Part shown: in pieces, positions 922-22,476 of the stretch
How the letters are laid out: each line of letters opens with the position of its first letter
Numbering within the stretch: position 1 is the first letter of the stretch
Origin: a virus
DNA: 23,199 nt
Reading direction: 5' to 3' (one strand)
Virus record (IMG/VR): IMGVR_UViG_3300025168_000707
Location: 1 to 23,199 of that record
Made by a program: the position numbers and the translations under genes
The notes under the pieces: model-generated
Seen by the model: only the letters and a program-made list of their open reading frames with translations
The model's database searches: none
What the model was told of the DNA's origin: nothing

Positions 922-2364
922 TCAAGGTCCATGAAGTGGTTCTCCGTCACCACTACTATCGTCATCAATAACAACACCACCACCGGGATTTCCTTCATTA
1001 TTTCGTCCACCTGTGCTATCATCATTTGGTCCACCACCCTGGCCTCCGCCTGGATCATTACCGGCACCACCACCTCCATCACCTCCACCAGATTCGTTGG
1101 ATGAATCACCCAACTGCACTGCGAAAATGTTAAAGGGTCTGTTCTGATCAGGTCCTGCTGTTAGTCCCTCTTGTCCAGAATATGAATTGACTTTCAATAC
1201 TCTATAGTCGTCTGTTACTGTTCCAAACACTCTTACGTCGGTCAAAGCCTTTGCTGTGGTGTCTGCTGTTGCACCCGTGGTTCCTGCATGAGAAGGAGAG
1301 AGCATAAAGATGGGAGCATTGGATGTCTTGAAGAACTGTCCAAACTTCAGAACGTTATTTCCTGTACCCCCGGTTGGAGCAATGTCATTAAGAGCGATGT
1401 ACATATCGCTACCAGCTAATATAGTTCCTGAAGCATTGTGGGTATCTATTTTCTGATATCTTAGCAGAAGAGCGTCTGCTTGAGATGCAGCCACATTGTT
1501 AACTTCACCCGAAGCGATTGCGGTAACTTGTGCGCCGATCATATCAGGCAAAGGAGAATTCTGTTGGATGTTCTCAAACCGAGAAAGATCAATACCTTTC
1601 TCTACTTGCACATTTGCAAGATCAATCATTTCACCACCATATGCAATACTATTCTTTAGGTTTCTATTAGAAGAGTTTGCAGTGGTTGTTCCTGCCTGAA
1701 TGTAAAAGTTAAGTTCAGTATAGTTGTCACCGGATATACCAATTTCTTTACCTTTGATACCTGGCACTTTAAATTTTACACTATGTCTTTTCCAAGATGA
1801 TTCGAGTGTAACTTCCTGTCCCTTTACCTGAACCGGATATGACGCGGTGAATCCATCATCGAATTCTCCTCCACCATTCCATTCACCTAAACTACCACCA
1901 CTCTTTCCAAACACCTGAGTAAGCCCTACACCTAATTTGTGTCCAGCAGAATAACCTTTAGCATAAAATGAAACATTTAAAGTTGAAGCCTGTAGAATTC
2001 TTACGTTTGGAATTCTATGAGATACTGAAATTATTTCGTTTGCATAGGTTCCACCAGTGATTCCACCCTGATGCATTCTCATAAAGTAAAGTGGGTTTCC
2101 TTCTACCTCAACTTGACCAATATCATGAGGACGCTTTTCTACTCTATGAATAGACGCGAGTCCTGAACCTGTTGATCCATCTGTCCCCGGCCAATAACGA
2201 GTGAACCATTCATCAGAGGTAGATGTCAACTTAACAGAACTGTTTATTCCATGAATGTCCGTAGAGATACCTCTACTCCACTTCGCAAAAGAAGCGTTTG
2301 ACACTAGGTTTCGGAGTGCTTCGCTGCCTGCTACTCCTCTTAGATTTATTGATGATGATCCCAT
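922..2364 (-). CDS. Fibre/adhesin protein with carbohydrate-binding-like domain and Gly-rich tail
   Basis: 480 residues from ATG 2364-2362, preceded by an AGGGTAA ribosome-binding-like site. Residues about 15-268 form a jelly-roll-like module: NLVSNASFAKW near the start, LNVSFYAKG in the middle, WKRHSVKFKV, and ending DLANVQVEKG. This is the pattern of carbohydrate-binding-like domains on phage fibres. It matches the domain in the 1391-residue fibre (NLIVNGNFDLW, ATISFWAKG, WRRYTFSIRI, LAQVQVEEG), so the two are paralogous. Residues about 290-420 are predicted beta-rich and are not recognised. Residues about 424-480 are Gly/Asp/Asn-rich low complexity with several GGG runs. It is probably a minor fibre or adhesin subunit contacting surface glycans. 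The Gly-rich end loosely recalls the polyglycine motifs of gp38-type adhesins, but there is only one such block, so that link is weak. Confidence 0.8.
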   Translation of the reverse strand: MGSSSINLRGVAGSEALRNLVSNASFAKWSRGISTDIHGINSSVKLTSTSDEWFTRYWPGTDGSTGSGLASIHRVEKRPHDIGQVEVEGNPLYFMRMHQGGITGGTYANEIISVSHRIPNVRILQASTLNVSFYAKGYSAGHKLGVGLTQVFGKSGGSLGEWNGGGEFDDGFTASYPVQVKGQEVTLESSWKRHSVKFKVPGIKGKEIGISGDNYTELNFYIQAGTTTANSSNRNLKNSIAYGGEMIDLANVQVEKGIDLSRFENIQQNSPLPDMIGAQVTAIASGEVNNVAASQADALLLRYQKIDTHNASGTILAGSDMYIALNDIAPTGGTGNNVLKFGQFFKTSNAPIFMLSPSHAGTTGATADTTAKALTDVRVFGTVTDDYRVLKVNSYSGQEGLTAGPDQNRPFNIFAVQLGDSSNESGGGDGGGGAGNDPGGGQGGGPNDDSTGGRNNEGNPGGGVVIDDDSSGDGEPLHGP

Positions 2365-4557: not shown

Positions 4558-7500
4558 TTAGCTATTGTTGTAAAGTTCTGCGTCTGCTTTAAAGTTGTAG
4601 TGGAATTCGCACTGCCAGTACTCATCACCGACGGTTTCATCGATAACAAAAATCTCATTAATGTATTCTTTTGTTCCTCTTGCAAATCCGTTCAGTCCAC
4701 CTACCTGTCTATTTCCACCTATTCTACTAACACCCAGAGTTTTATTTGAATGATCAGGAATTAACATTTCATTCGCTTGTCTTTGAGCATTACTGAACGC
4801 ACGTTTTAGGTGAATTTTTCCAGAGATACCACTAGCTTCTGGACTTCCTATAGTACCAAATCCATCGTTAGATCGGTTAAGTACATCAACGTAAGGTTCA
4901 GTTCTCATTGGTACTGGGAACGTTGTGTGTTGTTGTAATACACTGTTGACTAGATGATTTATTACTGGCACATATCCTCTGGCGTTTACTAGTGATTCAG
5001 CTTCATTTTCCCGAGCATTAAACGATGTTGAGTAATATCTTTGGCAAAGTCTAAGAGTTTCATCTTCTCTCAGAAGTTCAAAATCAGTAGCTTTGGATCC
5101 TTCTTCAACTTGAACTTGTGCAAGACTTAGAGTTCCTGTATAGTTGATATTTGCAGAACCGTTTCCTCTAATTCCTGCTTTCAGACAAGTGTATAAGTTT
5201 ATGTCAAGCGACGAATCAGGCGTATTGCAAGTATCTTTTCCTTCTGTTCCAGAAGTAAGATCGGCAATTCTAATACTGAACGTGTATCTTCTCCAAGTGG
5301 TGTCCACAATGAAAGATCGTACCCCAAAGTTTTCATTCGTAGCAGGAACACCATTTGTTCCGTAATCCCTACTATAACCGAGGAAACACGTTCCTGTTGC
5401 ATCACCCTTTGCCCAGAAAGAAATAGTTGCGTTCTTTCCTGAGAGAGTACGGACATTTTCTATCTTCTGTCCAATATAGTTGTGTCCGTCTGAGTCGAAT
5501 GTTCCAGTCTCATTTCCCTTTACGTTGATGTAGTACTTGGGATAATGCGGAACCTCAGTTTGTGCAAGACCAAATTCTTTTCTCTGAACTGCGAGTGTTG
5601 ATTTTCCACCGGATGATAGCTTTTGAGATCTAAGCCACCTATCAGCAAAATATGCATCATCGTCTTGTTTTGCATCGACAGTTGTTCCGATTGCTCGTCT
5701 TCTTTGCCATAGGTCAAAGTTACCATTGACGATAAGATTCTTACGATCAGTATTGGTTTGCTTAAGACGAGTTAGTGCATTGTCCATGACTTGGTTAACA
5801 CCAAGAAGAGTCATACTAATTTGATCATATTGAAGACCCGGTTCTACATTTGGTGTCTGATTCAACCAGATTCTCATTCTGAATTGTAGTTGACTCTGAT
5901 TAGGAACAACCGGGACTGTAACAGTAGTGGCATAGAATTGTCCTGCCCTATCAGAAAGTCCGCTAGTCAATATAGCAGGGGGTCCCGAACCTTGTCGGTT
6001 GTCGCCCGCGATGGGAATATATTGACCTGTATTTGGATCTAAGTACTCAACATAATGGAAGAAGAAATCATCATCAAATTCAATTGCTAATTTAGCAGAA
6101 CGAACTAGAGCAGCATTAAATCCATTTCCTCTTAAGTCTGCAACATTTAGAGTCCACTCTTTGGTCTGTGCGTTTCCTCTACCCCTCCTGTAATCTGGAA
6201 AACCTGCGCTAGTTTCAAAGTAAGTTATATCTCGCATGAATGTGGTGTGAACGTCGTACACCCAACCACCGGCTGCACCACCACCTTTTGATGATTGTCC
6301 ACCTTCTCCACTATTGCTGCCAGGATTGGTTCCTAAATCAATCCAGCCAAGTGGGTCATACGAAAGATCCGGATGCTGTACAAGAAGTTCACCGCCACCA
6401 ATGTCGTAGTTTGTGATACTAATGAATTCGCTATCACCACCCAAGATTTGTGTACCGTCAAACAGTTCATTTACACCCTCGACGCGAATGATGTAAGCGA
6501 GAGTGAAGAATGGTGGGAGGTTGTCGTGTGCTATACCACTACCAGATCCTATTCCTTCTCCCAAGAAAGAACTGACCAACGATGTCGGTTTAGTAACTTT
6601 AGCCACACCGAATTGAGTTCTACCGGCTGCACCACCTTGGGGATCGCCTTCTTGTTCTTGTTCGGCATTATCGTGACCAGTTCCGGAAATGATATTACCT
6701 GCTGCAATTTCTCCAGCTGTTTGTGAGCTTCGAGGGTGAACTGCACTTTCATAAGCGTGATCGTGATCAGGTAACTCATCGACGGTTAGTGTGTGCTTCT
6801 TAGATCCACCAAAATCACCTATTGTATCAAAGTCAGCATCATCTGGATCTCGTCCTACGATGAACTTACCTTTAAGATTTGGAACAGTGAACGTATTTGC
6901 CGACTCGTCACCACCAAACTTTCTACCAATTTCAGTAAACAATTCTGGATATAAAGTTTCGGCATAAGCAGCACCATCACACAATACAAAGCCTTGTGGG
7001 ATTGCAGCAACACTTCCCGACCAAGCCATCACTGATCCTACTGGAACATCTGTACTAAAGTCATCCTCAGCAATCGGCTCTTCAACCGTACCTCTCAGGA
7101 TTGTTACGATACCACCTGAAACTCCGTCAGCAACATATAGAGGTTTATTGATTTGATCAGCAGCAAAGGCAACCGCAGATCCGGTAACAACATCTATGCC
7201 GTCATCTAATTCTTTACCACTAATTGTGTTGGAACGAACATCAGCAGCAGGAGGGGATGGGTGAATGAAGTATGTTTCACCTACAGTATTTACATTACAA
7301 TCCCGCATGGTGAATGATCCAGACATGACAAGACTGTTCATGTTTTCGATACCACCAACGTCAATGTCATTTACAATACCAACAACATCGGACATATCAG
7401 CATTTGCTTTTGCCCTCTTAAATACCATTCCACCAGATGCATCTTGTTTTACAATTGCTGCATCACCGAAAGTAAATCCTTCAGCTATTGTGTCATTAAA

Positions 7501-8730
7501 CAATATTGTATTTGCTCGTAACCCATTTGCGGCATTTTGAATCAGTTCAACTTCACCACCTAAGTAGTTCTTGACTAATGCTCTATCAGCATCCAGTGCA
7601 ATGAAAACTGTTTTCTGTACTTGACCATTCGATACGGGTTTTTCTTCTGTAATTTGCCCTGCGTTGAGTGGACTTAAGAAGTAAGCATTACCCGGAGTAA
7701 GGTTTGAGGATTCATCGCTAATTCCAGAGAAATTACCTCTCAATTCACCACCAAGAGTCAGTTCAAACTTACTTGAATTATACACTCTAGATACAACACC
7801 GATGACTTCGGCAGTGGCTACTGCATTTGCTTTCGCAGCGGCATATCCGCTAGAGGGAGTCATATAAACTGGCGTACCGAAAGTAAATCCATGAGAGGAT
7901 TGATCTATCGTAATTTTGTTTGCGCCATTAACAATACTAACATATCCGTCATCATCAATGTACATTGCATCTGCTGAATGTCCAGCAACAATGTCGTCAT
8001 TGAATACACGGAAGAGTCTATTTGTTCCGGTAGAACCACCTATGGTTATGCCTGTAAATCCTCCCGAAAGAAGCGGTGACATGGTTGCACCATTTCCGGT
8101 AGTTCCTACTGCAAATCCAAGAATTAATCCTTTGGGTGCATTTCCGCTTCCGCCCGATACACCAGTTCCGAATTTAATTCCACCTGTTCTGTCAAGTCTA
8201 AATGGATCACCCGTAATGCCTGTTGCAGAATCACTCGCACCAAGTAAACTCTTGTTACTTCCAATGCTTATATTTTGGTTTGAATTCCAACCAGCGTTTG
8301 TGTGCTTCCAGAGAAATTCTTTATCTCCACTTACGCCCTTGACAATGATACCACCGCCCGATGCTCCACCCGACTGAAGCATAATATCGTGATCATTTAC
8401 AGATTCGGTTGTGGAACCTAAAACTAGATTGTAGTCATCTACCGTAAATTCAGTAGAATTGATAGTCGTTGTTTTTCCGTTTACTGTAATACTACCATTA
8501 AAGGTAATATCCTTTTCGACAGTATTTCCAATTTCAATATGAAGAACACCTGCGGCGTTAGTAGAAGCCGAAATACCATCACCGGCAGAACCACCGGCTG
8601 ATTGAACAGTATAAACCTCTAAACGGTTTAACTTTTCAATTATAGAATTGTTAGTTACAGTGAACCATTCATGGAACGTGTCACTTAAAACTAGGTCTGG
8701 GATATCGTAAGTTGTATTTTCAACGCCCAT
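4558..8730 (-). CDS. Large multi-domain tail fibre protein with tail-collar and carbohydrate-binding-like domains
   Basis: About 1390 residues. A TTG at 8733 directly precedes ATG 8730-8728; I prefer the ATG, which lies 8 bases after AGAGAG. The N-terminus (to about 190) carries the fibre motif TVNGKTTTINSTEFTVDDYN and then KEFLWKHTNAGW, common in T4-like marine phage fibres. Two beta adapter domains follow at about 283-395 (SHGFTFGTPVYM) and 415-545 (EGFTFGDAAIV). A canonical tail-collar domain spans about 560-750: PVGSVMAWSG, GFVLCDG, FTVPNLKGKFIVGRDP, HDNLPPFFTLAYIIRV. An unassigned beta-rich region (770-1000) includes a short Gly/Ser linker. A carbohydrate-binding-like module lies at about 1000-1215 (NLIVNGNFDLW to VQVEEG). 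The last 170 residues begin LRLCQRYYST, a common fibre C-terminal motif. In T4 order this is the gp12 position. Likely a trimeric receptor-binding fibre. The start overlaps the upstream small gene. Confidence 0.9.
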   Translation of the reverse strand: MGVENTTYDIPDLVLSDTFHEWFTVTNNSIIEKLNRLEVYTVQSAGGSAGDGISASTNAAGVLHIEIGNTVEKDITFNGSITVNGKTTTINSTEFTVDDYNLVLGSTTESVNDHDIMLQSGGASGGGIIVKGVSGDKEFLWKHTNAGWNSNQNISIGSNKSLLGASDSATGITGDPFRLDRTGGIKFGTGVSGGSGNAPKGLILGFAVGTTGNGATMSPLLSGGFTGITIGGSTGTNRLFRVFNDDIVAGHSADAMYIDDDGYVSIVNGANKITIDQSSHGFTFGTPVYMTPSSGYAAAKANAVATAEVIGVVSRVYNSSKFELTLGGELRGNFSGISDESSNLTPGNAYFLSPLNAGQITEEKPVSNGQVQKTVFIALDADRALVKNYLGGEVELIQNAANGLRANTILFNDTIAEGFTFGDAAIVKQDASGGMVFKRAKANADMSDVVGIVNDIDVGGIENMNSLVMSGSFTMRDCNVNTVGETYFIHPSPPAADVRSNTISGKELDDGIDVVTGSAVAFAADQINKPLYVADGVSGGIVTILRGTVEEPIAEDDFSTDVPVGSVMAWSGSVAAIPQGFVLCDGAAYAETLYPELFTEIGRKFGGDESANTFTVPNLKGKFIVGRDPDDADFDTIGDFGGSKKHTLTVDELPDHDHAYESAVHPRSSQTAGEIAAGNIISGTGHDNAEQEQEGDPQGGAAGRTQFGVAKVTKPTSLVSSFLGEGIGSGSGIAHDNLPPFFTLAYIIRVEGVNELFDGTQILGGDSEFISITNYDIGGGELLVQHPDLSYDPLGWIDLGTNPGSNSGEGGQSSKGGGAAGGWVYDVHTTFMRDITYFETSAGFPDYRRGRGNAQTKEWTLNVADLRGNGFNAALVRSAKLAIEFDDDFFFHYVEYLDPNTGQYIPIAGDNRQGSGPPAILTSGLSDRAGQFYATTVTVPVVPNQSQLQFRMRIWLNQTPNVEPGLQYDQISMTLLGVNQVMDNALTRLKQTNTDRKNLIVNGNFDLWQRRRAIGTTVDAKQDDDAYFADRWLRSQKLSSGGKSTLAVQRKEFGLAQTEVPHYPKYYINVKGNETGTFDSDGHNYIGQKIENVRTLSGKNATISFWAKGDATGTCFLGYSRDYGTNGVPATNENFGVRSFIVDTTWRRYTFSIRIADLTSGTEGKDTCNTPDSSLDINLYTCLKAGIRGNGSANINYTGTLSLAQVQVEEGSKATDFELLREDETLRLCQRYYSTSFNARENEAESLVNARGYVPVINHLVNSVLQQHTTFPVPMRTEPYVDVLNRSNDGFGTIGSPEASGISGKIHLKRAFSNAQRQANEMLIPDHSNKTLGVSRIGGNRQVGGLNGFARGTKEYINEIFVIDETVGDEYWQCEFHYNFKADAELYNNS

Positions 8731-8905
8731 CAATTAATCTCTCTAGTAAAGTTTTTATGGTAGATAATTCTTCCTTCATACTATCTATTTCAGTTTCCAT
8801 CTTGCTAATTTTATTTCTTGATTTTACTTCTTTATTGTCAACATATAAAATCGCATTCGTTGTATTATCTCGTAATATGTCAGATCTTCCTTCTATACCT
8901 CTCAT
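8720..8905 (-). CDS. Small coiled-coil protein between baseplate and fibre genes
   Basis: 61 residues from ATG 8905-8903. A TTG at 8911 would add two residues, but GAG spacing favours the ATG. Residues 33-57 form a perfect heptad series: I33, M36, I40, M43, L47, I50, L54, L57, spaced 3-4-3-4, with charged residues between. This predicts a parallel coiled coil of nearly four heptads. The first 30 residues (RSDILRDNTTNAILYVDNKE) are polar and unassigned. It starts 2 bases before the end of the DUF4815 gene at 8908 and its stop overlaps the start of the large fibre gene by 11 bases, so it is probably translationally coupled to both. No family recognised. It could be a small virion linker, a trimerisation factor, or an analogue of the T4 fibre chaperone gp57A, which is also small and helical. 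That last idea rests on position and helix only. Confidence 0.72.
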   Translation of the reverse strand: MRGIEGRSDILRDNTTNAILYVDNKEVKSRNKISKMETEIDSMKEELSTIKTLLERLIDGR

Positions 8906-8907: not shown

Positions 8908-11900
8908 TCAATGCTCTAATGCCACGGCTCTTAATGACTTAACTACAGGTATGTCTGATTTGTCTGAAGTGTATAGACAAATCTTAACTGCAAAGGAACT
9001 ATATTTTGAATTTATTGAAATACCATCAAGATGGAATGATTCGGTTATGACCTCTGATACTCCACCAGAATAACGTTCTGCAAATTTTCTAGAGAGTTTA
9101 TGATATGTGAAGTTATCAAAATCATCATTACTACCTCTACTCTGACCCTTTATGTATACTTCGATCTGAGTGTTTTCTGGTTTTATCATATCCACATCAA
9201 CATGGAAATCGTTTGCCGCATTATTGAAAGGTAACTCTATCCTCTTGGTTATGTACCTTACATCAGAACCCACACTTGTTCCAAATGGATTCTTATCGTC
9301 TTGTGTTCCTGTATTATTGTTTATCTCATTCTCTACATGAAGAAGATTAACGGTTGTAGTATCAAAGACCGGAGAAACGTCATCATTTGAATTTGTGAAT
9401 GTTATTGAGAAAGATCCTATACCTGTAGAATCTATCGTTTTCTCTGTAGGCAATGTTATATTAGTATTTTCATCTACTGCTGCGTTACTAAGATGTGAGT
9501 ACGTAATGCTTTTTCCTGTGCCAGATGGAGAAAGCATAAAGGTATTCAGTCTTGCAAGATGTGTCTTGTGTGATGTTCCTGTATTAGTTCCAGAAAGTGT
9601 CAACGATCTGTCAGTTCCAGTAGTGACAAACTTACATCTAGTTAAAGTAAACTTAAGATCTTTAGTGTAGTCCGGTTCTGCTATGTTTGTATTTTGAGGT
9701 CTGAACAAGCTACCACCATAAACTGGTTTTTGTATTCTCTTAGGATTGTCTCCACTAGTTAATTCAGTTTCTCCCACAGTCGCAGTATATAACTGATAGT
9801 CTGAACTGTTAGATGTAAGACATATAGCATACTCTCCTGGCTCTAAGAAAATAGGAGTAGTAAAATCAACTGACGTTTCAGTTTCTGGATATACAGTATT
9901 TACATTTACGTTATCAGGATACAATACTACTTCAGAGAACGGAACAATTGCAGATGGATGCGGATATCCATTCTTAGTTGGGCGAATCTGAACTGTTATT
10001 GGTAGATTATTATCTTTCTTTGCAAACCAAAGACGAATATTCTGCAAGAACACACCTCTAGGATTCTCCGATTCATCCACAAAGAAAGTTTGTGCCAGAG
10101 GATCAGTCCATTGGTACTGTTCGCTTGTTCTTAATGAAGATTTCCTAGTAGAAACATCAGTAGGAATTGCAGAACTATTGACTGTCTGTTTTCTCCTGAT
10201 TATTGGTCTAACAGAAGATACATTCTGATCTCTTGTTTCGTATATACCTTGTGCAAATATCGGAGTCTCTGCAATGGTGGTTGCAGTAGAGATACTATTA
10301 GTAGTGTTGTCTATAAATCGTAGAGTTCTCTTACCAGTCAAGAACTTCTTGGTTGGTATACTTAAAGTTATTCCTGAAAGTTTGCCAGTTGTGTCTGTAG
10401 TCAGGAACGAACCAGTGGTAGATCCTGATATATTAGAACTAACATCTTCGTTGTCTAAGTACGCATATACTAGTGTATCTGGTTTTAGGTTGTGAACATC
10501 TATTCCTATATCCCTAGATCTCATATAAGGAACTACACTGAGATCTATTGTCTTATCTCTAAGTGTCTTTATGATATGTTCTGGGAATTTACTGAGTGAA
10601 GGAATAAGATCTTCTGTTTTCTGTTCGATACTCTTTGTGGTTCTCTGAATAATCAAGTCCTTCTCAAAGTAGGATCTAATCGTATTCAGATTTTCATTTA
10701 CTCTTGGAATTGATAATAGATTTGTATTCTTGGTATCAGATAATTGCCGATCATCATCTTTACCTAACCAAATAGATTCCCAGTCTCGCCACTGTGTACC
10801 AAAACCTACTCGGGTATCATCATATGATGTGGCTAACCAAGCATCATTCTCACCTTCACTATTAGTTCTTACAACAGGTCTTTCTGTTGGATCATACCAA
10901 GTATCAATTGGTCTATCAAGATTAACAGCACCAACCCAGTTCGTAAGTTGATATGGGTTTACTTGTATAGTCTCGGTTGCTTTAGTTTGTTCTGCAAAAG
11001 TCAATCCAGCGGTATCATATTTTATCAATACAATTCCATCAGAGGTACGAGTAAGTCCATTTGATAGCGTAGCGTCTAAGTCATAAATATAAGATTCAAA
11101 CGAAGGTCTTAATTCCTTGTTGTGCAGATCTATTGAACACTTGTAGTCATCATTAGATACATCTCCGATACCGTGTCCGTTAAAGTCATCTACCAGAATT
11201 GCTTTCTTTTCTGCTTCAGTGCTATTTACTGAAAGCCTATTCTCAAATGATATTGAATCTATTTTAGATTCTACAGCGGATAGAGAACTCAGAATTTCTA
11301 CTCTTTCTAGCCTCTTGTCTACTTCTCCAATGTCTCTCATTGTATATCGTTTATGAGGAACAGCTTCAATGTTGATATCGTTGACATTGTGTGTGTATGC
11401 TGGATATAACAACTTATACAATGTTAATGAGTCTTCTTTATCTTCTGGGGCTTCTGGTGTTATGCTAGGAGCGCCACCGAGAATCTGGAATGAACTAGTA
11501 TCATCGTTGAAGTTTCTTTTTAGAATAACTTTGTCTATTCTTGGAACATAGTATTTGTGGGAAACTTGCAATCCATCAGAAGATCTGTCCACGGAACTTG
11601 TACCATCTCCTTCGATTTCAAATACAGGGAAACATCCTGAACTTAATTCTTCTTCTACACCAACAGTTCCTCTTTCATAGTCACGAACAGATCTAAAATC
11701 GATACATGAAGTGAGCGATGTTGTTTTTCCACTAGCTTTACTTGTATATAATGGAATATCTTCATATGCGATTTCACTTGTGTCATCTCCAACTGGATAT
11801 GAATCAACAGTCAGGAATCCAAAGTCACCGACATGCTCAAAGTAATCATAGTTTACTGTTAAACTAAAACTATACTGACCATCTTCATTCTTGTAAGAAT

Positions 11901-14079
11901 CTTCTTTTGACTTGATGAAATATAGTCGAGCAAATTCGTATGAGTAATCTCGTTGACCATCATCAAACATGAAGTCATTGATTACACTCACATTGCTATT
12001 CAATTGATCTTCTATTTTGTTTATTCTGAATACATCAGCATGTCTAAGTTCAATATATCTTCTTCCACTTTCATCTAACACAATATCAGCTTCTGTGAAC
12101 GTTTGGTTTACAGGAAGATTGCTGTCTTCTCTGCCATTTATCCTCTTAGTTTTGATACCCGATAAGTAGGACGAAGTGCCGTCATGCTTGAATGAACATG
12201 TTGTGACTAAAACATGTTCGGCTAACCAACTACCTTCTTCGCCTTCTGGTGGCGAAATTCCAACATCCAGAACTAATGAATCGGATCTTCTTGTTAAGTT
12301 ATATTCACTCGGTGGAACGAGTACGTTAGACGCAAATCCACCTCTAACCTCTTGTCTATACAACTGATAATACGCAGACTTGAAATCATCGGACAAAAGT
12401 CCATCCGATCCAACAAATTCCCAATGACTGGGATCTGGACCAGAAACATCACCCATGTTGATAGTGACGATTCCATTTTGATCTGAATTTAATGCTCCAT
12501 ATGGATTTAATTGTCCATATGTCTGACGGACTTTAACGTCAATATCAGTAATCCCTATTTCACTGGTGTTAATTCCAGTGAATATACCAGTTCCCTTGTC
12601 AACTGGGAATACTAAACTGCTTGACTCTCCATCAACAAAATTTGATCCCTGTTGAATTGTAGTCGTTGCAAAAAATCCAACATTGTTTCTAATATGATAA
12701 TGTGTGGCAGTCACCGGAACATCGGACAAACTAGAAAAGCCTTCTCTAAATTTTAAATCTTTAAAGTAGTAACGGATTTTATCATGAACACCAATATCTC
12801 CGCTATCGCTATTTCCGCTATCTAAACTATAATTGATGAATCCAACAATCTCTGCATCTGCAATCACTATACTGTTAATCCGGTCCGCCGAATTTTCTCC
12901 AGCAGCATGACGGATAGTGACCGGCATAGGTTTGACAGTTCCAAAACCATCAGCTAAATTATTACTCATTCCAGTTTGGAGACCAGTAGCATAACCTTGG
13001 AGATCCCAATAGGAGCCAAGTTCAAATGGTTTTATCTTTGACTTTTCTCTGGTTTCTGTTGTTCTTGCTTTATCTACTTCGATAAATTCTGTGGACTGAT
13101 TATCGAATTCATGTCCAAAGATGTAGGCTTTACCCGAACCAAGTCCAACCGATAGTTTACTAGCATCGGTACTTTTCGATATGGTAATTTCAAATGGATC
13201 TACGACATATGAACCTGACTCATCGTATGTCCTTCGTGCCAATGTTTTTTCTATTTCAGAATATTCACTGGTTGATCTTTGAGTTGTAACTACACCATTT
13301 GTTAATGTAGCCAGGGGAACGAAGTTATCTCGTTCTAATGTTTCGTAAAATTTAAGATCAAGACCTACTTTGTATCTGTCTGCACCCGGAGCATTCGAGT
13401 TATATGATCCCTTTGCCGGATCGGTGAGAGTCGAATCATTATTTGATCCAATATACTCTCTAGAAATATCAAAACCAAAGTGACCTGTTGGATAATCTCC
13501 TGCATCAGTGATAAATACTCTGGAACTTCCCGAGAAGGCAGGGTAATACTGAATACCACTTCTTACAAAATATCCATCAATGTAGAATATACCTTCATTT
13601 ACAGAAAATAGTTTTGATTGTCCTGAAGATGAAGGGGTGACAGTTGCAGTTCCGATTGGATAGGTAGAATCTAAACTAGAAGCAGCGGCAAGATTCGCTA
13701 AAGTTCCTCTGACAACTTGAACAAACAGTACAACAAAATTATCATCAGTCGTGGCAGACTCTGCATGAATAACCTTTGCTCTATTATCACCACTGAATAC
13801 TTCATATCCAATGAAAGATGTGAGGGGATCAGTAGTGGTAACTCGAATGAAGTCTACAGTTTGAATGGCACTTTCTGCACCATAAACCTTTGAGCCATCT
13901 CTGAATATGTGATTTCCCAACCGTTCAACTTGATTCTGTAAAATAGTTTGTAATTGAGTCAGTTCTCTTGCTTGAACTGAAAACCCAGGTCTAAAAAGAA
14001 TTTTGTGAAAATTCTTTGTTTCGTCAAAATCATCATAGTATGGATCTATGTTGAAAAGTTTTGAACTATAAGATGGCAT
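8908..14079 (-). CDS. Giant DUF4815-type baseplate/tail structural protein
   Basis: 1723 residues from ATG 14079-14077 with an AAAGGAG site 10 bases upstream. The N-terminus (residues 1-70) has the DUF4815 signature: FNIDPYYDDFDETKNFHKIL, then FRPGFSVQARELTQLQTILQ and QVERLGNHIF. Residues about 98-127 contain a short beta module (RAKVIHAES, VVLFVQVVRG). Around 910-960 is the conserved helical segment YTMRDIGEVDKRLERVEI, followed by ILVDDF and YKCSIDL. Near 1183 comes PYMRSRDIGIDVHNLKPDT with VYAYLDNEDV. At about 1325-1400 is AQTFFVDESENPRG, VFLQNIRLWFAKKD and ITVQIRPTKNGYPHP. These occur in large virion structural proteins of T4-like marine phages. It sits directly after gp8, where T4 encodes gp9 and gp10, so a role in the wedge periphery or fibre attachment is likely but inferred. 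It is unusually long. No catalytic motif is seen. Confidence 0.88.
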   Translation of the reverse strand: MPSYSSKLFNIDPYYDDFDETKNFHKILFRPGFSVQARELTQLQTILQNQVERLGNHIFRDGSKVYGAESAIQTVDFIRVTTTDPLTSFIGYEVFSGDNRAKVIHAESATTDDNFVVLFVQVVRGTLANLAAASSLDSTYPIGTATVTPSSSGQSKLFSVNEGIFYIDGYFVRSGIQYYPAFSGSSRVFITDAGDYPTGHFGFDISREYIGSNNDSTLTDPAKGSYNSNAPGADRYKVGLDLKFYETLERDNFVPLATLTNGVVTTQRSTSEYSEIEKTLARRTYDESGSYVVDPFEITISKSTDASKLSVGLGSGKAYIFGHEFDNQSTEFIEVDKARTTETREKSKIKPFELGSYWDLQGYATGLQTGMSNNLADGFGTVKPMPVTIRHAAGENSADRINSIVIADAEIVGFINYSLDSGNSDSGDIGVHDKIRYYFKDLKFREGFSSLSDVPVTATHYHIRNNVGFFATTTIQQGSNFVDGESSSLVFPVDKGTGIFTGINTSEIGITDIDVKVRQTYGQLNPYGALNSDQNGIVTINMGDVSGPDPSHWEFVGSDGLLSDDFKSAYYQLYRQEVRGGFASNVLVPPSEYNLTRRSDSLVLDVGISPPEGEEGSWLAEHVLVTTCSFKHDGTSSYLSGIKTKRINGREDSNLPVNQTFTEADIVLDESGRRYIELRHADVFRINKIEDQLNSNVSVINDFMFDDGQRDYSYEFARLYFIKSKEDSYKNEDGQYSFSLTVNYDYFEHVGDFGFLTVDSYPVGDDTSEIAYEDIPLYTSKASGKTTSLTSCIDFRSVRDYERGTVGVEEELSSGCFPVFEIEGDGTSSVDRSSDGLQVSHKYYVPRIDKVILKRNFNDDTSSFQILGGAPSITPEAPEDKEDSLTLYKLLYPAYTHNVNDINIEAVPHKRYTMRDIGEVDKRLERVEILSSLSAVESKIDSISFENRLSVNSTEAEKKAILVDDFNGHGIGDVSNDDYKCSIDLHNKELRPSFESYIYDLDATLSNGLTRTSDGIVLIKYDTAGLTFAEQTKATETIQVNPYQLTNWVGAVNLDRPIDTWYDPTERPVVRTNSEGENDAWLATSYDDTRVGFGTQWRDWESIWLGKDDDRQLSDTKNTNLLSIPRVNENLNTIRSYFEKDLIIQRTTKSIEQKTEDLIPSLSKFPEHIIKTLRDKTIDLSVVPYMRSRDIGIDVHNLKPDTLVYAYLDNEDVSSNISGSTTGSFLTTDTTGKLSGITLSIPTKKFLTGKRTLRFIDNTTNSISTATTIAETPIFAQGIYETRDQNVSSVRPIIRRKQTVNSSAIPTDVSTRKSSLRTSEQYQWTDPLAQTFFVDESENPRGVFLQNIRLWFAKKDNNLPITVQIRPTKNGYPHPSAIVPFSEVVLYPDNVNVNTVYPETETSVDFTTPIFLEPGEYAICLTSNSSDYQLYTATVGETELTSGDNPKRIQKPVYGGSLFRPQNTNIAEPDYTKDLKFTLTRCKFVTTGTDRSLTLSGTNTGTSHKTHLARLNTFMLSPSGTGKSITYSHLSNAAVDENTNITLPTEKTIDSTGIGSFSITFTNSNDDVSPVFDTTTVNLLHVENEINNNTGTQDDKNPFGTSVGSDVRYITKRIELPFNNAANDFHVDVDMIKPENTQIEVYIKGQSRGSNDDFDNFTYHKLSRKFAERYSGGVSEVITESFHLDGISINSKYSSFAVKICLYTSDKSDIPVVKSLRAVALEH

Positions 14080-14089: not shown

Positions 14090-14096
14090 CTCCTTT
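14090..14096 (-). promoter_or_regulatory. Ribosome-binding site overlapping the gp8 stop codon
   Basis: The minus strand reads AAAGGAG, 10 bases before the ATG of the DUF4815-type gene. Its first bases are shared with the TAA stop of gp8 (14097-14095). Ribosomes terminating gp8 would sit on the site, so the two genes are probably translationally coupled. Confidence 0.6.
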
Positions 14097-16473
14097 AGAA
14101 TCCTATACGGACTCTGAATTCTTCTCGCTGTCCTATCTTTCGAGTTACAGGCCTTACGTTCTGTATGTATAATACTTGTCCGGAACCTTTAACCACATCA
14201 GGATCTCGTACGGTATCTACATTAAAATATCCCGTAGGAGATGTTATTCCCGTTCCCGTAGTATAACCACTAGCAGTGATTCCCATTCCTGTAGTAAATC
14301 CACCTATTACATTAGTAAGAAGTAGTGACCCGCTTGCACCGCCTTCTGCGACGTTCCATGATGCAACATCGGCTATGGATCGTTTTCTGTTTACAAATTG
14401 ACTTACTCTGGAATCTAACGAAAAAGTACCAGTATTGAGTGTTCCAGTAACTGGACTGACTATAAGTTCTGTAGTCATTCTGTATATCGGTTTGGGTGAT
14501 GCAGTTAAGCCAGTTAAGAATGTATTTGTCCCCGAAACAATTCTTCCTATTCTGGGATCGTTACTCATTGTAGTAAATGTTCCAGTGGTTAATCCAAAGG
14601 TGCATATCTTTTCTCCACCAGCGTCAACTAGCCCTTCATAGTTTCCACTCAAACCACCGTAAGCTGTTGCATAAGTCAATCCAGTAATGTTCCTAACGGG
14701 ATGAAGAGATCCAGAAGAGAATGGTATCGCACCTGCACCGGAAGTGGCTGCAAGTCTAACTATCAACTCTCTATTTGCACTATCCCATCCTCTAACCGTT
14801 CCCTCTGCTGTTTGACCAATAACGGAATTGTATTGATTTACTCTTTCGTACAGCGTGAAATCTCCGCTGGGACCAGGAAGACCTCCACAAGCTCCTGTCG
14901 CTCCAAACGATATCAAAATGTCTTCGTGTTCTACGCTAGGTAAAACAAATTTCTTTGTTGGGTTTGCCAGTCGAAGTGTGCCTGTAGTTTGCTCGGTATT
15001 TACACGCCAAGATAAAATCTCAGCTACGGATCTAGACTCTTCTCCGAAAACATAATCACCAGCTGGGAAAGTTGGGGGGTCAAGCAAATATTTCGGACCT
15101 GTTAAACCTGCTGGTTTTCTGATCTCTAAGTTAAATGTTTTGTTATATTCAGATCCTGCTATTCTATCTGAATTATCATTTAATATTGGATTCTTAATAA
15201 TACCAAACTGCCTGAAGTCGTTTACGTTTATAATTTGAGGTTGACCTTCAACATTATCATTCAAGATACGTATCATTATATTAGAAGCATCAAGCTCATT
15301 AATGAGATCTGAACCATGACCACCTTTAGGACCAATTTCTATAGAGGCTTCTGGGACGGGTCCGCTGACGCCTGTTCCTGAGTTGGATCCAGTTCCTGTC
15401 GGGAAAGTTGCGTAAGCAAATGTATAATTGCTACCACCTCTGATTATGTCAGCTCCAACCGCTTTTCTACTTGAATCTACATTTAATATTGCTAATGCAT
15501 CAGTACCATCACCATGTATTTCAATTTCCGGTAGAACTTTAAATTTTGTTCTTCTTCCTTCAATGTCATTTAGACCATACAAAGTATTTTCTAATGTAGA
15601 ACCTAGAGTTACTATCTTTTGTTTGGAAGTAGAATCTACTGAATAATCTGTTATCCTCTTTAAAGTCCCTACCTCTGGACCATTTCCGCTAGGAATGTAT
15701 AGCGTGTAACTATTATAGGCATCATTAGTTTCAGAAAAAGTAACATCGTCCGGATCAAACTCAAGAGTATTACCACCAGCAGAAGTTGTCTTTAAAATAT
15801 TAAAAGCCTCTGTAGTCGAAAGAGAATACTGATCAACGCTCGAAGCGGCAGTATTTCCTACAGAAATTTTATACAATTCACCATCAATAGCTTTTCTCTG
15901 TACCGTGTACTGCAATTGCTCTGTGCTATCACCGCCCTTTTGTGCAACACTAATCGGTAAATATTCTTTGGTTAAGAAATCTTTTTGATCTTCAGTCAGC
16001 GTGTACAGATATTTCCACTGATATGCTTCACCCAAAGATCCTACTACAGTGAAGATGGAAGTTCCCGTACCCGTTGGTTTTCCAGTTGATTGTCTTCCGC
16101 CATCATTAGAAATGCACTTATATACATTGCTGCCATCCACTAAAACATAGTAGTTGGCTATATTAGACACATCGTGTAAATCTGCACTATCACTATATTC
16201 AGCGAACAGCGTATCTGATTTCCAATTATGTCTTGGAACAACAAGAGATGCGTTTCTACTGTCTAGACGAATAGCAAAAAGAGAGTTCCGGTGAGCAGAA
16301 AATTGATCCTTAACCGAATCCACTACTAGGGGAGGAGTCACTTCACTTTCCCAAGGGAGACACCTACCGAAAAATACATAATAATTATCGTCCGATTCTA
16401 AATCAAAACTTTCTTTTAGACTGTTTGCAAACACAGTTCTAAACTTATTTTGTAGTGGATCTGTTAATGCCAT
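14095..16473 (-). CDS. 8: Baseplate wedge protein gp8, enlarged
   Basis: 792 residues from ATG 16473-16471, with AAGGTAA upstream. The first 190 residues follow T4 gp8: FRTVFANSLKESF, NYYVFFGRCLPWESE, then LVVPRHNWKSD, ANYYVLVDGSNVYKCISNDG and YQWKYLYTLTEDQ. These correspond to FGRSEPW, PRRDW, VYRCLD and YVWEYLFEI in T4 gp8 as I recall it. In T4, gp8 is a wedge component that contacts gp10, gp7 and gp6. T4 gp8 is 334 residues, so this version carries about 450 extra. The C-terminal half contains three similar beta segments at about 483-509 (AEILSW, GTLRLANPTKKF), 553-585 (AEGTVRGW, ELIVRLA) and 698-731 (ADVASW, GSLLLTNVIGGF). The protein ends RKIGQREEFRVRIGF. Its place between gp7-like and DUF4815 genes matches T4 order. 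The identity of the N-terminal part is secure; the function of the extension is unknown. Confidence 0.88.
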   Translation of the reverse strand: MALTDPLQNKFRTVFANSLKESFDLESDDNYYVFFGRCLPWESEVTPPLVVDSVKDQFSAHRNSLFAIRLDSRNASLVVPRHNWKSDTLFAEYSDSADLHDVSNIANYYVLVDGSNVYKCISNDGGRQSTGKPTGTGTSIFTVVGSLGEAYQWKYLYTLTEDQKDFLTKEYLPISVAQKGGDSTEQLQYTVQRKAIDGELYKISVGNTAASSVDQYSLSTTEAFNILKTTSAGGNTLEFDPDDVTFSETNDAYNSYTLYIPSGNGPEVGTLKRITDYSVDSTSKQKIVTLGSTLENTLYGLNDIEGRRTKFKVLPEIEIHGDGTDALAILNVDSSRKAVGADIIRGGSNYTFAYATFPTGTGSNSGTGVSGPVPEASIEIGPKGGHGSDLINELDASNIMIRILNDNVEGQPQIINVNDFRQFGIIKNPILNDNSDRIAGSEYNKTFNLEIRKPAGLTGPKYLLDPPTFPAGDYVFGEESRSVAEILSWRVNTEQTTGTLRLANPTKKFVLPSVEHEDILISFGATGACGGLPGPSGDFTLYERVNQYNSVIGQTAEGTVRGWDSANRELIVRLAATSGAGAIPFSSGSLHPVRNITGLTYATAYGGLSGNYEGLVDAGGEKICTFGLTTGTFTTMSNDPRIGRIVSGTNTFLTGLTASPKPIYRMTTELIVSPVTGTLNTGTFSLDSRVSQFVNRKRSIADVASWNVAEGGASGSLLLTNVIGGFTTGMGITASGYTTGTGITSPTGYFNVDTVRDPDVVKGSGQVLYIQNVRPVTRKIGQREEFRVRIGF

Positions 16474-16487: not shown

Positions 16488-18281
16488 TTATTCCGGGTTA
16501 GCGGTAAGACCAAACGGGGCGCTATAATATTCATCAGACAAGGTTCCGCCCGTCCCAAGATACGGGAACTTAGGTTTAGACCATGTAGAATATGTAGGGT
16601 TAGAATGAAACTTACTTCCGACAGGAAGATTGAAAAATGTATTATTGACTATTGCTCCAAACGATGTTCCGTATGATATGGTATTATCTCCAGAACTTGC
16701 ACCCTTTGAATTTGGGTGGTGGTGGATAGCAAAGAAATTTAAGCTGAGACCTTGTGCAGCGGTATATCCACCCGCTTCGCTTGTGATACCTAACGCCCCG
16801 GTGGCACCAATACCAACGAAGTGTTGTGTTACACCACCCTCGGGAACCGTGGCAACATCAGAACCATAAACTAAAGTAACACCAGTTTGACCATTTGAAG
16901 TAACTCCAGTAAAGCCGGGTGCGTATCCATCTGGATATAAATCCACACTTGTACCTGCTATGGAATTATTTGATCGTAAGTCTTGTGTGGTTCCGAATGT
17001 ATATGGTGTATAATTACCAATTCTGGTTATTACTGTACTCTGCAATTCACTATGGAAAGGCAGATTAGATTCTATGTTGTCTGTTAAAAGGATATCACCG
17101 AAGAATTTAAATCCTGCTGGGTGCAACAAAGACTTGAGTGCTTTTCCATATTTCTCTATTGATAGTTCTGACTTCAGAACATAAGAGAATCTCTGGTAGT
17201 AATTACTATCATGTAGTTTCTTTCTTGAACTTGGTTTTCCACCATCGTCCAAGTATACACCAGCATATTCTGCGACCGCACCAACAGTAGCAAGTCCGAA
17301 AGCAGTACCATCACCACTAGAAGTTTCAACAGAAAATGTAGAACTCTGTGTGTAGTTTGTTCCGGGGTTTAGAATTATAACTTCCTGAATCTGCCCTGCA
17401 TTATCTACTCTAGAAACTTGTCCAGAGGCACCTACACCACTGTCGGTATTAAGTAAGGTGACTTTATCACCTATCCTATAATTCACACCAAGACTGGTCA
17501 TTTCAAATTTAGTATTTACACCAAAAACAGTTTCATCAACTGAAGAACCTGTGGACAGTACTGCACGAATATCCTGAGAAGCAATAAACGCTCCCTGTAT
17601 ATTGCTCAAAAATAGTTCTGTTACCTTGTATGGACCTTCCTTATATTGAAGAAGATCGTCTACCCTAGCAGATCCAATGTAGGAAGTTCTAGCGATGTTC
17701 ATTTGATTGACGACTTGACCCTTTAGATTAAAAAGATCATTGCCATTATTTGAGGTAATACGTATAGATTTCTTTTCAGACCAGTTACCACCAGAACTCT
17801 CAAACAAATCATTTCTTGGATAATAGACTTCTAAAATACTATTATAGAAAGCATTGAAGAAAAATTCAAAAGACTTCTCTGATCCTTTTATAGCATAGAA
17901 GTCTTTAATTCTTTTAAGAATGTTTTTTCTGTTTATGGTATTTCCAACTTCATCAGTTTCAAAAACAACAGGCAAATCATTCATGAACGTGTTTTCAAAG
18001 GATCCTACAAATTCATCTATAGTCGTTTCTATATCATAGTAATCATTGAGTAGGAGCGTTCTTTCTGTGGCATTTCCAGACTGCTCCATCCATTCGTAAT
18101 ACGCTTCCAGAAAAGCCACAAAGTTGGGGTGATCTGAATTTACAAAATCAGGAACCTGTGATTGGATTAGGGGGGAAATACCTTCCAGCAGACTTTCAAT
18201 TCTGGGTGGGAATTGTACAAGTGTGCCATTATCCCAAATGGTTAAACCGTGAGCTTCACGTAATAGTAATCCTAGAGCCAT
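16488..18281 (-). CDS. 7: Short gp7-like baseplate wedge protein
   Basis: 597 residues from ATG 18281-18279, three bases after the gp6 stop. Recognised by position between gp6 and gp8 and by motifs shared with the C-terminal part of T4 gp7 (1032 residues). HPNFVAFLEAYYEWMEQSG (about 51-69) parallels SNFEAFCEAYIQYLSDG. KRIKDFYAIKGSEKSFEFFF (about 125-144) parallels the DFYSTKGIEASYKFLF segment. LFLSNIQGAFIASQDI parallels HNLLGRLIAGQEV. Near 395, SLLHPAGFKFFGDILLTDNI parallels RFVHPVGFGFIAITLL. In T4 this region of gp7 packs with gp6 in the wedge core. The N-terminal domains of T4 gp7 are missing, and the last 180 residues are Gly/Thr-rich and not recognised. T4 sequences are recalled from memory, so a profile comparison should confirm. 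Likely function: wedge core partner of gp6. Confidence 0.75.
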   Translation of the reverse strand: MALGLLLREAHGLTIWDNGTLVQFPPRIESLLEGISPLIQSQVPDFVNSDHPNFVAFLEAYYEWMEQSGNATERTLLLNDYYDIETTIDEFVGSFENTFMNDLPVVFETDEVGNTINRKNILKRIKDFYAIKGSEKSFEFFFNAFYNSILEVYYPRNDLFESSGGNWSEKKSIRITSNNGNDLFNLKGQVVNQMNIARTSYIGSARVDDLLQYKEGPYKVTELFLSNIQGAFIASQDIRAVLSTGSSVDETVFGVNTKFEMTSLGVNYRIGDKVTLLNTDSGVGASGQVSRVDNAGQIQEVIILNPGTNYTQSSTFSVETSSGDGTAFGLATVGAVAEYAGVYLDDGGKPSSRKKLHDSNYYQRFSYVLKSELSIEKYGKALKSLLHPAGFKFFGDILLTDNIESNLPFHSELQSTVITRIGNYTPYTFGTTQDLRSNNSIAGTSVDLYPDGYAPGFTGVTSNGQTGVTLVYGSDVATVPEGGVTQHFVGIGATGALGITSEAGGYTAAQGLSLNFFAIHHHPNSKGASSGDNTISYGTSFGAIVNNTFFNLPVGSKFHSNPTYSTWSKPKFPYLGTGGTLSDEYYSAPFGLTANPE

Positions 18282-18284: not shown

Positions 18285-20297
18285 TTAATATCCACCGCCG
18301 CCACCACCGCCACCACTACCGCTACCTGAAGATGAAGAAGACGAAGAGGAAGATGAAGATGAAGTGGATGTTGTTGAAGAAGAACTGCTACTAGTGCTGG
18401 TTGAAGAACTACTTACAGTCGCAGATGAACCTATACGCTGCGTACGATCTGTCACATCAAATACCTGAACTGAAGTAGAGTTATCCGAAGAGGAAGCCTC
18501 ATAATTTAAAATATTATTTTCTGGTGTGTAAATAGCATCTTCTTTGGGAGTAACCTCAAACCGAATTGTTCCATTGAAACTCGCACTAAGAGGAGAGAAG
18601 TTTTCGATGTTTATATTACCTCCTGCAAAATCTACATCACCCACATCCTTGAACACCGTTTGTTTAACTCCAAGAACATCTTCATATATTCTAAGTTTTC
18701 CGTTCATGTAGGAATCAATAGCGGCAAGGAATATTGTACCGTCATCTTTCTTATATGCAAAGTTAGAAGATTGGACACTCGCATCTCCTGAAATTCCGTT
18801 TAACGCATTATGATGCGTATTTTCGAGAGTGTTGTTGAATTTTATGGTATAGTTTCTTTGCTTGTTTAGATCAGGAACTAATCTCTTTTCTAATTTCAAA
18901 TCTACGTCAACATACTGCAAAGATGGATCCAAATTCCTGCATAGGTTTTCCAATTGATTTACATACAGTGGCTTACCAAACTTGGAGAGTTCGGTATTTG
19001 CATATAAATTTAAATACACTTCTACGAGTGCGGCCAGTTCATTGGGGGATTTAGCTGTAGATGTTGAGTCATATCCGACCTTAGCATTAAACTTAACATA
19101 AGTGTAGTCGGGGTCAATAAGTTCTGGTATAACACCAACGACGTTCTTAGATTTCAGAACGTCTCTCTTTATTGTTTCTTTTTCTGTGTCAGTTAAAACA
19201 CCCGATGATTTTGGTTTAATTGATATAAAAACTTTTCCGTACTGAGGTGGATCTGCATCCTCTCCTCCATAAATTTTTACGTCTTCTACATTTCCATACT
19301 CATTTAAGATTAAAGACTTGTAATCATTGGAAGTTACTGCTCTGTTTTGAGTTTGATAAAATCTAGGAGCATTTGTTCTTATACTCTCTAGACTTTCTTC
19401 ATTTGATCCTAAATCAGATGAAGATATTACTGACACAACCGAATTTCCGACACTAACGGTAAACGATCTATCAGATGCTGAATCAGATTTACCTAATCCA
19501 TTTGCAACAGCTCCTGAAGTATCCAGATACTCGATTGCTATCACGTTTCCGTCAGCAAGTTTTTTACCAATGATACCATCACCGAAAGTTATTTCATAGA
19601 ATCCATCAGCTCTCAATTCACAAAAATATGCATTTGTTGTAGGGGTTACTTGAGTAATATCAGTAACCTTCGTCCAGACATCACCTCGTCCGCCACTATC
19701 ATTTATCGAAGTTAGAACATTGACCGTCATGTGGTTTGTATCAACATTTGTCGATGGTATGATATATCTGGTTTTTCCTACGAGTGAATGTACATATGAG
19801 ACATTTGCCCAATTGCCCTCATAAATCTCAAAAGTAGGTGATGTATAAGGAGCAGATCCGGTTGTTGAAATTTTAACAGGGGTGCTGTTGTAATATGAAT
19901 ATACGGTGGTGTCCCCGTTTGATGTGATATACTTACCACGAAATCTTGTTTTTGCTGGTATTATTGTGGTGTCTGCCGAAATGTTACTCGACAGGGTAAC
20001 TTGAACTGAGGTTTGAGACGCACGCTTTGAATGTGGAGTGTAGGAAATTTGCTTGGCGTGTGATGCCACCGATGATCTTTTAGCAGCACTATCCAAGAAC
20101 ATTTCATTTGCTACCATGTTTGTATAAAATGATTGGTAGTGAGTATTGTATGCCAATACGTCAAGAAGAACTGAAAGTCCTGATCCCTCAAAGTCATAAT
20201 CCTTGAACTTGTCTTGGTTCTTTAGGTATGACTCGAAGTTCGTCCTAATATCATCAAAATCCAAATCTGTAATATTTTTAGTTGCGTCTATTGCCAT
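18285..20297 (-). CDS. 6: Baseplate wedge protein gp6
   Basis: 670 residues, close to T4 gp6 (660). The ATG at 20297-20295 overlaps the gp25 stop by one base (TAATG), with GAGAGGAC upstream, so it is translationally coupled to gp25. The N-terminal motifs are diagnostic: NQDKFKDYDFEGSGLSVLLD, VLAYNTHYQSFYTNMVANEM, AKRSSVASHA and YTPHSKRASQT parallel the T4 gp6 DYDFEGSRLNVLCDLLAYNT region. Near 325, RAVTSNDYKSLILNEYGNVE begins the baseplate_J-like part conserved in gp6 and P2 gpJ, followed by GKVFISIKPKSSG. In T4, gp6 dimers form the inner wedge ring that triggers sheath contraction. The last 50 residues are odd: a long Ser/Thr run, then GSGSGGGGGGGGY. T4 gp6 has no such tail. Its Gly codons also supply the ribosome-binding site for the gp7-like gene. 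Confidence 0.95.
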   Translation of the reverse strand: MAIDATKNITDLDFDDIRTNFESYLKNQDKFKDYDFEGSGLSVLLDVLAYNTHYQSFYTNMVANEMFLDSAAKRSSVASHAKQISYTPHSKRASQTSVQVTLSSNISADTTIIPAKTRFRGKYITSNGDTTVYSYYNSTPVKISTTGSAPYTSPTFEIYEGNWANVSYVHSLVGKTRYIIPSTNVDTNHMTVNVLTSINDSGGRGDVWTKVTDITQVTPTTNAYFCELRADGFYEITFGDGIIGKKLADGNVIAIEYLDTSGAVANGLGKSDSASDRSFTVSVGNSVVSVISSSDLGSNEESLESIRTNAPRFYQTQNRAVTSNDYKSLILNEYGNVEDVKIYGGEDADPPQYGKVFISIKPKSSGVLTDTEKETIKRDVLKSKNVVGVIPELIDPDYTYVKFNAKVGYDSTSTAKSPNELAALVEVYLNLYANTELSKFGKPLYVNQLENLCRNLDPSLQYVDVDLKLEKRLVPDLNKQRNYTIKFNNTLENTHHNALNGISGDASVQSSNFAYKKDDGTIFLAAIDSYMNGKLRIYEDVLGVKQTVFKDVGDVDFAGGNINIENFSPLSASFNGTIRFEVTPKEDAIYTPENNILNYEASSSDNSTSVQVFDVTDRTQRIGSSATVSSSSTSTSSSSSSTTSTSSSSSSSSSSSSGSGSGGGGGGGGY
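18291..18296 (-). promoter_or_regulatory. Ribosome-binding site embedded in the gp6 poly-Gly codons
   Basis: The minus strand reads GGTGGA, 9 bases before the gp7-like ATG. It is made of the final glycine codons of gp6, immediately before its Tyr codon and TAA stop. It is the only Shine-Dalgarno-like sequence available to the gp7-like gene. Confidence 0.5.
18294..18420 (-). repeat. Low-complexity Ser/Gly-coding tract at the end of gp6
   Basis: About 127 bases of simple sequence encode the Ser/Thr run and the poly-Gly end of gp6. Serine is encoded with mixed TCT, TCA and TCC codons, so the tract is imperfect at DNA level, but on the plus strand it appears as a long purine-rich GAAGATGAA-like stretch. 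Such tracts can change length by replication slippage, so this is a likely site of variation between relatives. Confidence 0.75.
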
Positions 20298-20677
20298 TAT
20301 CGAGTCCTCTCAAGGACAAAAGTTACTTGTGTAGTTTGGTTTATGTTTTTAGGTCTAAAAACAATAGTAACATCATAAGCATTTCTGTCTTCGTTAGTCC
20401 TCACTAGGACATTCAACAGTTCCACTCGGGGTTCAAAATTAGTAATGACCCTTTCGATTGCGTTTTTTATCTTCACTGATATTACAGGAGAAAATGATTC
20501 AAATAAATATTGTCTAACTCCACAATCTATATTAGGTCTAAATGGTCTATCATATTTAGCTGTCTGGACAAGATTCCTAACCGATCTTTTCAGTGCTTCC
20601 ATATCAGTAAGTATAGGAACATCCTTTGTCAGAGGATGTATGTCAAAGTTTAAATCTAAATCTGAGTATCTTGCCAT
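20297..20677 (-). CDS. 25: Baseplate wedge protein gp25
   Basis: 126 residues, normal for the GPW/gp25 family (T4 gp25 is 132). ATG 20677-20675; only a weak ribosome-binding site (TAGGC, rather distant) is visible. Key motifs: MARYSDLDLNFDIHPLTKDV at the start; residues 30-55 with LKRSVRNLV and RPFRPNIDCGVRQYLFES; and NFEPRVELLNVLV around 81-93, containing the conserved EPR triplet. In T4, gp25 binds gp6 and gp53 in the wedge core and helps nucleate sheath assembly; the family is shared with type VI secretion (TssE). It is followed by gp6 with a one-base stop/start overlap, so the two wedge partners are made together. In T4 itself gene 25 lies in a different cluster from 6-7-8; here they are adjacent. 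Confidence 0.95.
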   Translation of the reverse strand: MARYSDLDLNFDIHPLTKDVPILTDMEALKRSVRNLVQTAKYDRPFRPNIDCGVRQYLFESFSPVISVKIKNAIERVITNFEPRVELLNVLVRTNEDRNAYDVTIVFRPKNINQTTQVTFVLERTR

Positions 20678-22195: not shown

Positions 22196-22476
22196 TATGC
22201 AACCCTCACATTGGGAGAACCTGTTATGATCTTATGTCCACATTGAGCCGAATCATTCAATCTAAGAATAGACTTTCCTCCCGCTCTCACCGTGGGAGAT
22301 CCTATGCTGAATGGAGATTGGCATATCTCGGTATCTCCATGATTGTGACAAGCAAGAACAGAGTCCTTAACCGCAACTGGAATTCCATTTATACGAACAC
22401 CTGTTTGAGGTCCACTCTGTATAGGAACACCAGCATTACTATAATCTGTAAAAAGTCTCGCTGCATTTTTTGCCAT
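22195..22476 (-). CDS. 5.4: PAAR-domain spike-tip protein (gp5.4-like)
   Basis: 93 residues, close to T4 gp5.4 (97). ATG 22476-22474 overlaps the upstream stop (TGATG) and has a strong GGAGGAG site 7 bases away. The protein is nearly all PAAR domain: VRINGIPVAVKDSV at 27-40, CHNHG at 43-47, SPFSIGSPTVRAGGKSILRL at 54-73, then CGHKIITGSPNVRVA at 79-93. PAAR proteins fold as a sharp beta cone that caps the central spike trimer (gp5 in T4, VgrG in type VI secretion) and bind a metal at the tip. Cys43, His44, His46, Cys52, Cys79 and His81 are the candidate ligands; the family usually uses His and Cys here. No extra effector domain is attached. Its place just before gp25-gp6 matches T4, where 5.4 precedes 6. 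Confidence 0.92.
   Translation of the reverse strand: MAKNAARLFTDYSNAGVPIQSGPQTGVRINGIPVAVKDSVLACHNHGDTEICQSPFSIGSPTVRAGGKSILRLNDSAQCGHKIITGSPNVRVA

Follow-up and report, generated by a model that had tools for sequence, protein, structure and literature searches.

The baseplate module and a 61-residue gene behind VrlC

The window, as we call the whole stretch of DNA that was analysed (a virus record of 23.2 kb), carries, on its minus strand, a baseplate module of the T4-like type with the gene order gp25, gp6, wedge, gp8, VrlC, 61-aa gene and fibres. Profile searches assigned gp25 (20297-20677) and gp6 (18285-20297), followed by a wedge protein of 597 aa (16488-18281) that matches Baseplate_wedge. 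A gp8-like baseplate wedge protein (14095-16473), which lies upstream of VrlC, the 1723-aa baseplate protein VrlC itself (DUF4815, 8908-14079) and a large fibre with a collar domain (4558-8730) were likewise assigned by profile, and the fibre has the motif DTFxEWxxxTN at its N-terminus. The 597-aa wedge protein also matches domain I of the tail-sheath protein Gp18 and parts of giant structural proteins. An ORF of 235 aa (22476-23183, minus strand), which adjoins a PAAR protein (22195-22476), has only a weak match to CBM_5_12 and none to a PHROG.

The gene under study occupies positions 8720-8905 of the minus strand; the ORF listing has its ATG at 8905 and its stop ending at 8720, while the plus strand is full of stops over this range. 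Its ATG is found 2 nt past the stop of VrlC, and its last 11 nt (8720-8730) also belong to the start of the fibre gene (ATG at 8730). By eye, the sequence AGAGAG is seen inside the gene ahead of the fibre ATG at 8730, but no clear ribosome site could be recognized for the 61-aa gene itself, and translational coupling to VrlC is therefore likely. A preliminary description had reported a 61-residue product that is translationally linked to the large fibre gene, and both points are borne out. The upstream link to VrlC, which it did not mention, is the tighter of the two.

That description had also noted a flawless series of a/d heptad positions over residues 33-57, and I33, M36, I40, M43, L47, I50, L54 and L57 do fit when inspected by eye. 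In the best stretch of 25 residues (30-54), all seven a/d positions are occupied by LIVMF residues, which are almost missing elsewhere in the stretch. The heptad score was matched by 2 of 2000 shuffles of the whole protein and by none of 2000 shuffles of its C-terminal part. Across the window, one of 39 ORF segments beginning with ATG reached the score, the 61-aa gene being included in this set. Among the collected family proteins, 58 of 61 show the heptad pattern at a shuffle p < 0.05. AlphaFold2, run with 33 sequences, predicts (pLDDT 90.4) an N-terminal head with strands at residues 2-4, 7-12 and 19-21 (residues 1-24, 8834-8905, minus strand), and a single C-terminal helix which contains the heptads (residues 25-59, 8729-8833, minus strand). 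Conserved residues are R12, D13, S/T16, A18, I/L19 and L20 in the head and E/D46, I50, K51 and L54 in the coil.

A fold search of this model against the PDB gave no match (19 hits, all with E > 5), and VIA-align reached a Z of 2 or more in none of 22 comparisons. Among viral models, the best hits are uncharacterised small phage proteins, including those from a cyanophage, pf16 and phiM12, with E 0.04 or worse. Candidates for a solved relative were rejected: the sequence of the 61-aa protein gives a single hit (E = 0.7), and the hits by family profile are generic coiled coils and GCN4 fusions (E 0.006 or worse), which are attributed to composition.

Family membership and linkage to VrlC

The 61-aa ORF is a genuine gene: it matches PHROG 473 (E = 2.9e-8), has relatives in phages and in IMG/VR, and dN/dS in its family ranges from 0.04 to 0.50 in all 13 pairs computed. 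With its RDxxSxAIL head and its C-terminal heptads, the protein belongs on sequence grounds to the already known, little noticed PHROG 473 / T4-GC 112 family. A family HMM that was built without the 61-aa protein finds it with E = 3.3e-15, as the best of 666 frames. By tblastn, 16 phage records are matched at E up to 1, all from cyanophages or marine viruses and none with an identity above 60%, while relatives at six IMG/VR loci are up to 51% identical. Family members from the cyanophages P-SSM2, P-HM2, S-SM1 and S-PM2 resemble the 61-aa protein in their place behind VrlC, in the head motif and in the coiled coil. However, the cultured members found are just 28-39% identical to it, and a shorter linker joining head and coil distinguishes it from the cultured cyanophage members.

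The family may reach well beyond cyanophages. In Kuttervirus, the protein encoded behind VriC (PHROG 4322) also matches PHROG 473 (2.8e-5); there, neck genes as well as a small gene come after the VriC-adjacent one, and the tail spikes are encoded upstream of VriC. A511 gp107 and its Staphylococcus and Bacillus relatives (PHROG 1074) are encoded, as is the 61-aa protein, directly behind the DUF4815 protein, and A5W ORF093, SPO1 gp17.1, A511 gp107 and SPG24 gp002 have an RDPxSxA-type head in common. When this type was compared with the 61-aa family by hhalign, a probability of 93.9 was obtained (94.8 for the N-terminal part alone), a result that was matched by none of 200 column shuffles. The HMM of the 61-aa family finds the SPO1 and A5W genes more weakly, with E = 0.006 and 0.06, though as second and third of 666 frames, and the PHROG 473 profile, which picks up A511 gp107, misses its counterparts in SPO1 and ISP. 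There are also differences: the PHROG 1074 type forms a separate PHROG, its head continues with FIPT instead of AILNT, its hosts are Gram-positive and the coil of A5W is less regular than that of the 61-aa protein. Judged by these profile comparisons, the A511 gp107 type of Listeria and Staphylococcus phages and the 61-aa family are distant relatives. In the open-licence literature that was covered, no link between PHROG 473 and gp107 and no VrlC-wide companion were found.

VrlC is matched in 1504 of 50,697 phage records. We fetched 80 VrlC loci from IMG/VR and found the end of VrlC in 49, with at least 300 nt beyond it in 46; thus, 31 loci lacking the VrlC end (L022 and L024 among them) and three with less than 300 nt were left out. 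Using an HMM made from 17 cultured-phage proteins only, a family gene was found directly behind VrlC in all 46 assessable loci (37 of them distinct), as opposed to none of 428 random stretches. In all 39 cases measured, the distance between the two genes lies between -4 and +16 nt, with overlaps of 4 nt in 15. In two loci (L030, L032) VrlC is split over two frames, and the small gene is present in both.

Equivalent results were obtained for cultured phages. The small gene is downstream of VrlC in all 25 that were examined, comprising Kyanoviridae (including a pelagiphage), Ackermannviridae, Pootjesviridae, Stenotrophomonas and Vibrio phages, and Herelleviridae; it is unannotated in S-WAM2, 0507-KN2-1, P10VF, RHph_I46 and IME-SM1. 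P-SSM2 is the sole case among the phages examined where VrlC and the small gene are separated by two other genes (L007:13238-14004). In at least nine of the 25 (SynMITS9220M01, Sf-CH5, 0507-KN2-1, D510, IME-SM1, SD25, SilasIsHot, Sajous1 and SPG24) the small gene is followed not by a fibre but by small, neck or head genes, and in Ackermannviridae the tail spikes are encoded on the opposite side of VrlC. Whole-genome searches gave neither DUF4815 nor PHROG 473 for T4, while DUF4815 is found in all 12 other genomes searched, and in 10 of them the gene behind VrlC is hit by PHROG 473; in the other two, SPO1 and ISP, the sole match is elsewhere in the genome and has E > 0.03. The available text of one report numbers the 63- and 64-aa "chaperone" genes of Deep-Blue and Vp4 next to VrlC and names the place of the receptor-binding protein (RBP) genes as the sole difference in gene order from A511 (PMC11406892). 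The constant neighbour of the small gene is VrlC and not the fibre. VrlC apparently replaces T4 gp7, which implies a two-layered baseplate (PMC7029224, in its available part), and VriC has been related to baseplate proteins of A511 and phi812 (PMC11721090, likewise).

Virion proteomes, solved baseplates and the fibre side

Virion proteomes are at hand for relatives of the window phage, each obtained from purified particles, and for these the published parts accessible to us were compared. VrlC is prominent in S-CREM2 virions (450 unique peptides), but the family member gp125 is absent from the 52 virion proteins listed (PMC10665884). The same holds for CKA15, where VrlC is represented by 62 peptides with a coverage of 78.7%, while the small protein CKA15_126 is absent from the 29 virion proteins of a search that covered six-frame polypeptides of more than 30 aa (PMC12282133), and for ISP, where the VrlC homologue ORF36 has 33 peptides and the small protein ORF37 is absent from the 22 proteins (PMC3170307). 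For Sajous1 the situation is ambiguous: VrlC has 311 spectra and gp141, the small protein, is absent from the visible part of Table 6, which does contain "gp142, putative virion structural protein" with two spectra (PMC10892097). As the GenBank product name of gp141 is like that of gp142, gp141 may have been detected. The small protein is thus absent from three of the four lists.

By a simple count, the small proteins of S-CREM2, CKA15, ISP and Sajous1 would yield 6, 5, 2 and 4 usable tryptic peptides. At the coverage of VrlC, the chance to observe none of them is 0.025 for S-CREM2, 0.0004 for CKA15 and 0.35 for ISP, assuming equal copy number and recovery, which may fail for small proteins; those rich in lysine readily disappear from gels and digests. 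Two proteomes were left out, that of JS1 with its unmapped gene numbers and that of SboM-AG3, for which only six bands had been cut. Another protein of CKA15, the A511 gp109 homologue CKA15_128 (L114:9732-10142), is annotated as a suggested assembly chaperone, following Guerrero-Ferreira 2019, and is found in virions with 11 peptides (PMC12282133).

Among solved structures, in 9euf and the neighbouring PDB entries, which we take to be the phage 812 baseplate, the DUF4815 protein is accompanied by a CBM protein and the RBP, with chain names such as ORF65 and ORF68. A counterpart of the 52-aa protein was not found among their chains at E up to 1. Product names were discarded as evidence. The label "virion structural protein" is used in RefSeq NC_ entries of cyanophages and kutterviruses, while the matching GenBank originals read "hypothetical"; the label "hypothetical" for T4-GC 112 in S-SM1 is uninformative, as T4-GC 969, which was reportedly detected in virions, is labelled likewise.

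On the fibre side, the small gene of the window, like that of most IMG/VR loci, has VrlC as one neighbour and a fibre gene as the other. An N-terminal motif of the type xT(F/I)xxWxxxTN, which was chosen once the data were known, is present in 34 of the 38 genes that follow the small gene in the IMG/VR loci; among all 545 ORFs in these loci with a length of at least 150 aa, the followers included, 37 have it. In L022 (7797-13409 of the contig from IMGVR_UViG_3300007960_000635), DUF4815 and a tail collar domain (E 1e-5) share a single frame of at least 1871 aa. No small gene was found on this 13.4-kb contig, which ends within the fibre, and therefore the small gene could lie further on. L024, from another metagenome, is similar in that the VrlC end has no stop, with the contig ending before the collar. 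The fusion and the follower motif together suggest that VrlC, the small protein and the fibre make up a single joint, a view equally compatible with a permanent connector and with a chaperone acting there.

Putative role of the 61-aa protein

Such a connector would be a small trimeric adaptor which remains part of the particle and links VrlC with the fibre N-terminus, a possibility already raised in the preliminary description. Gene position, follower motif and the L022 fusion provide some support, and so does a report of A511 in which gp106 forms trimeric pyramids and gp107 is perhaps part of them (PMC9863714, in its available part); the RefSeq name would also agree, and a low-copy protein or one invisible to mass spectrometry could escape the proteome lists. 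On the other hand, VrlC and the next protein are both contained in three virion proteomes that do not list the small protein, the solved baseplates have no such chain, and in at least nine of the 25 cultured phages the gene has no fibre behind it. We regard a connector as possible though rather unlikely.

T4 gp57A is a helical tail fibre chaperone. The preliminary description had proposed the 61-aa protein as its positional analogue, which would trimerise the large fibre, and the overlap with the fibre start and the helical, heptad-containing protein speak for this. A small helical assembly factor, which was part of the proposal, is compatible with the proteomes, and A511 gp107 has indeed been termed "a putative chaperone" (PMC11406892, in its available part). 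The fibre as the client fares worse: the gene follows VrlC (46 of 46 loci), with the place of the RBP genes differing in Deep-Blue and Vp4 and the tail spikes of Ackermannviridae on the far side of VrlC. While gp57A and the 61-aa protein are both small with a possible chaperone role, homology was rejected (hhalign probabilities of 0.4 and 0.34), and T4 is a phage without DUF4815 and PHROG 473. We consider a dedicated fibre chaperone improbable. Still far less probable is a short frame retained for coupling alone, which hands ribosomes on from VrlC to the fibre start and encodes a functionless product. The tight junctions on both sides and the lack of a clear ribosome site would be expected from it, but head motif and core are conserved across phage families and the dN/dS values argue against a dispensable product.

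We favour an assembly factor for VrlC, which perhaps acts at the joint between VrlC and the fibre, over a permanent connector, because the small protein is absent from the mass spectrometry lists. More precisely, the 61-aa gene is proposed, with a probability of about 0.5, to encode a small oligomeric chaperone whose specific client is the VrlC arm of baseplates with two layers. The helix would make the protein a small oligomer, and the conserved RDxxSxAIL head may bind VrlC as it is being made, or else the part of it that receives the fibre, during formation of the VrlC trimer. Start-stop coupling would supply the protein where and when VrlC is made. It would leave before or at completion of the virion, so that little or none remains in the particle.

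More tentatively, and with odds well short of even, PHROGs 473, 4322 and 1074 might constitute one family of universal, dedicated, non-virion VrlC chaperones that act through a conserved strand-hairpin head carried by a short coiled coil. These would be present in every phage with a VrlC arm, from cyanophages and Salmonella phages to those of Staphylococcus and Listeria, and would represent the counterpart of gp57A for two-layered baseplates. A very large number of myophages rely on arms of the VrlC type for host binding, among them Staphylococcus and Listeria phages used for therapy. If VrlC needs a partner of 50-90 residues to fold, one small gene would be a test point for the building of the arm in many phages. 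The label "virion structural protein", which many RefSeq entries of the 61-aa family carry, is called into question.

Another observation concerns the fibres of the window. Fibre 3 (922-2364, minus strand) and residues 993-1293 of fibre 1, the large fibre encoded at 4558-8730, have PHROGs 4492, 27782 and 25042 in common. Perhaps the C-terminal part of fibre 1 and fibre 3 represent a shared, possibly swapped, receptor-binding module.
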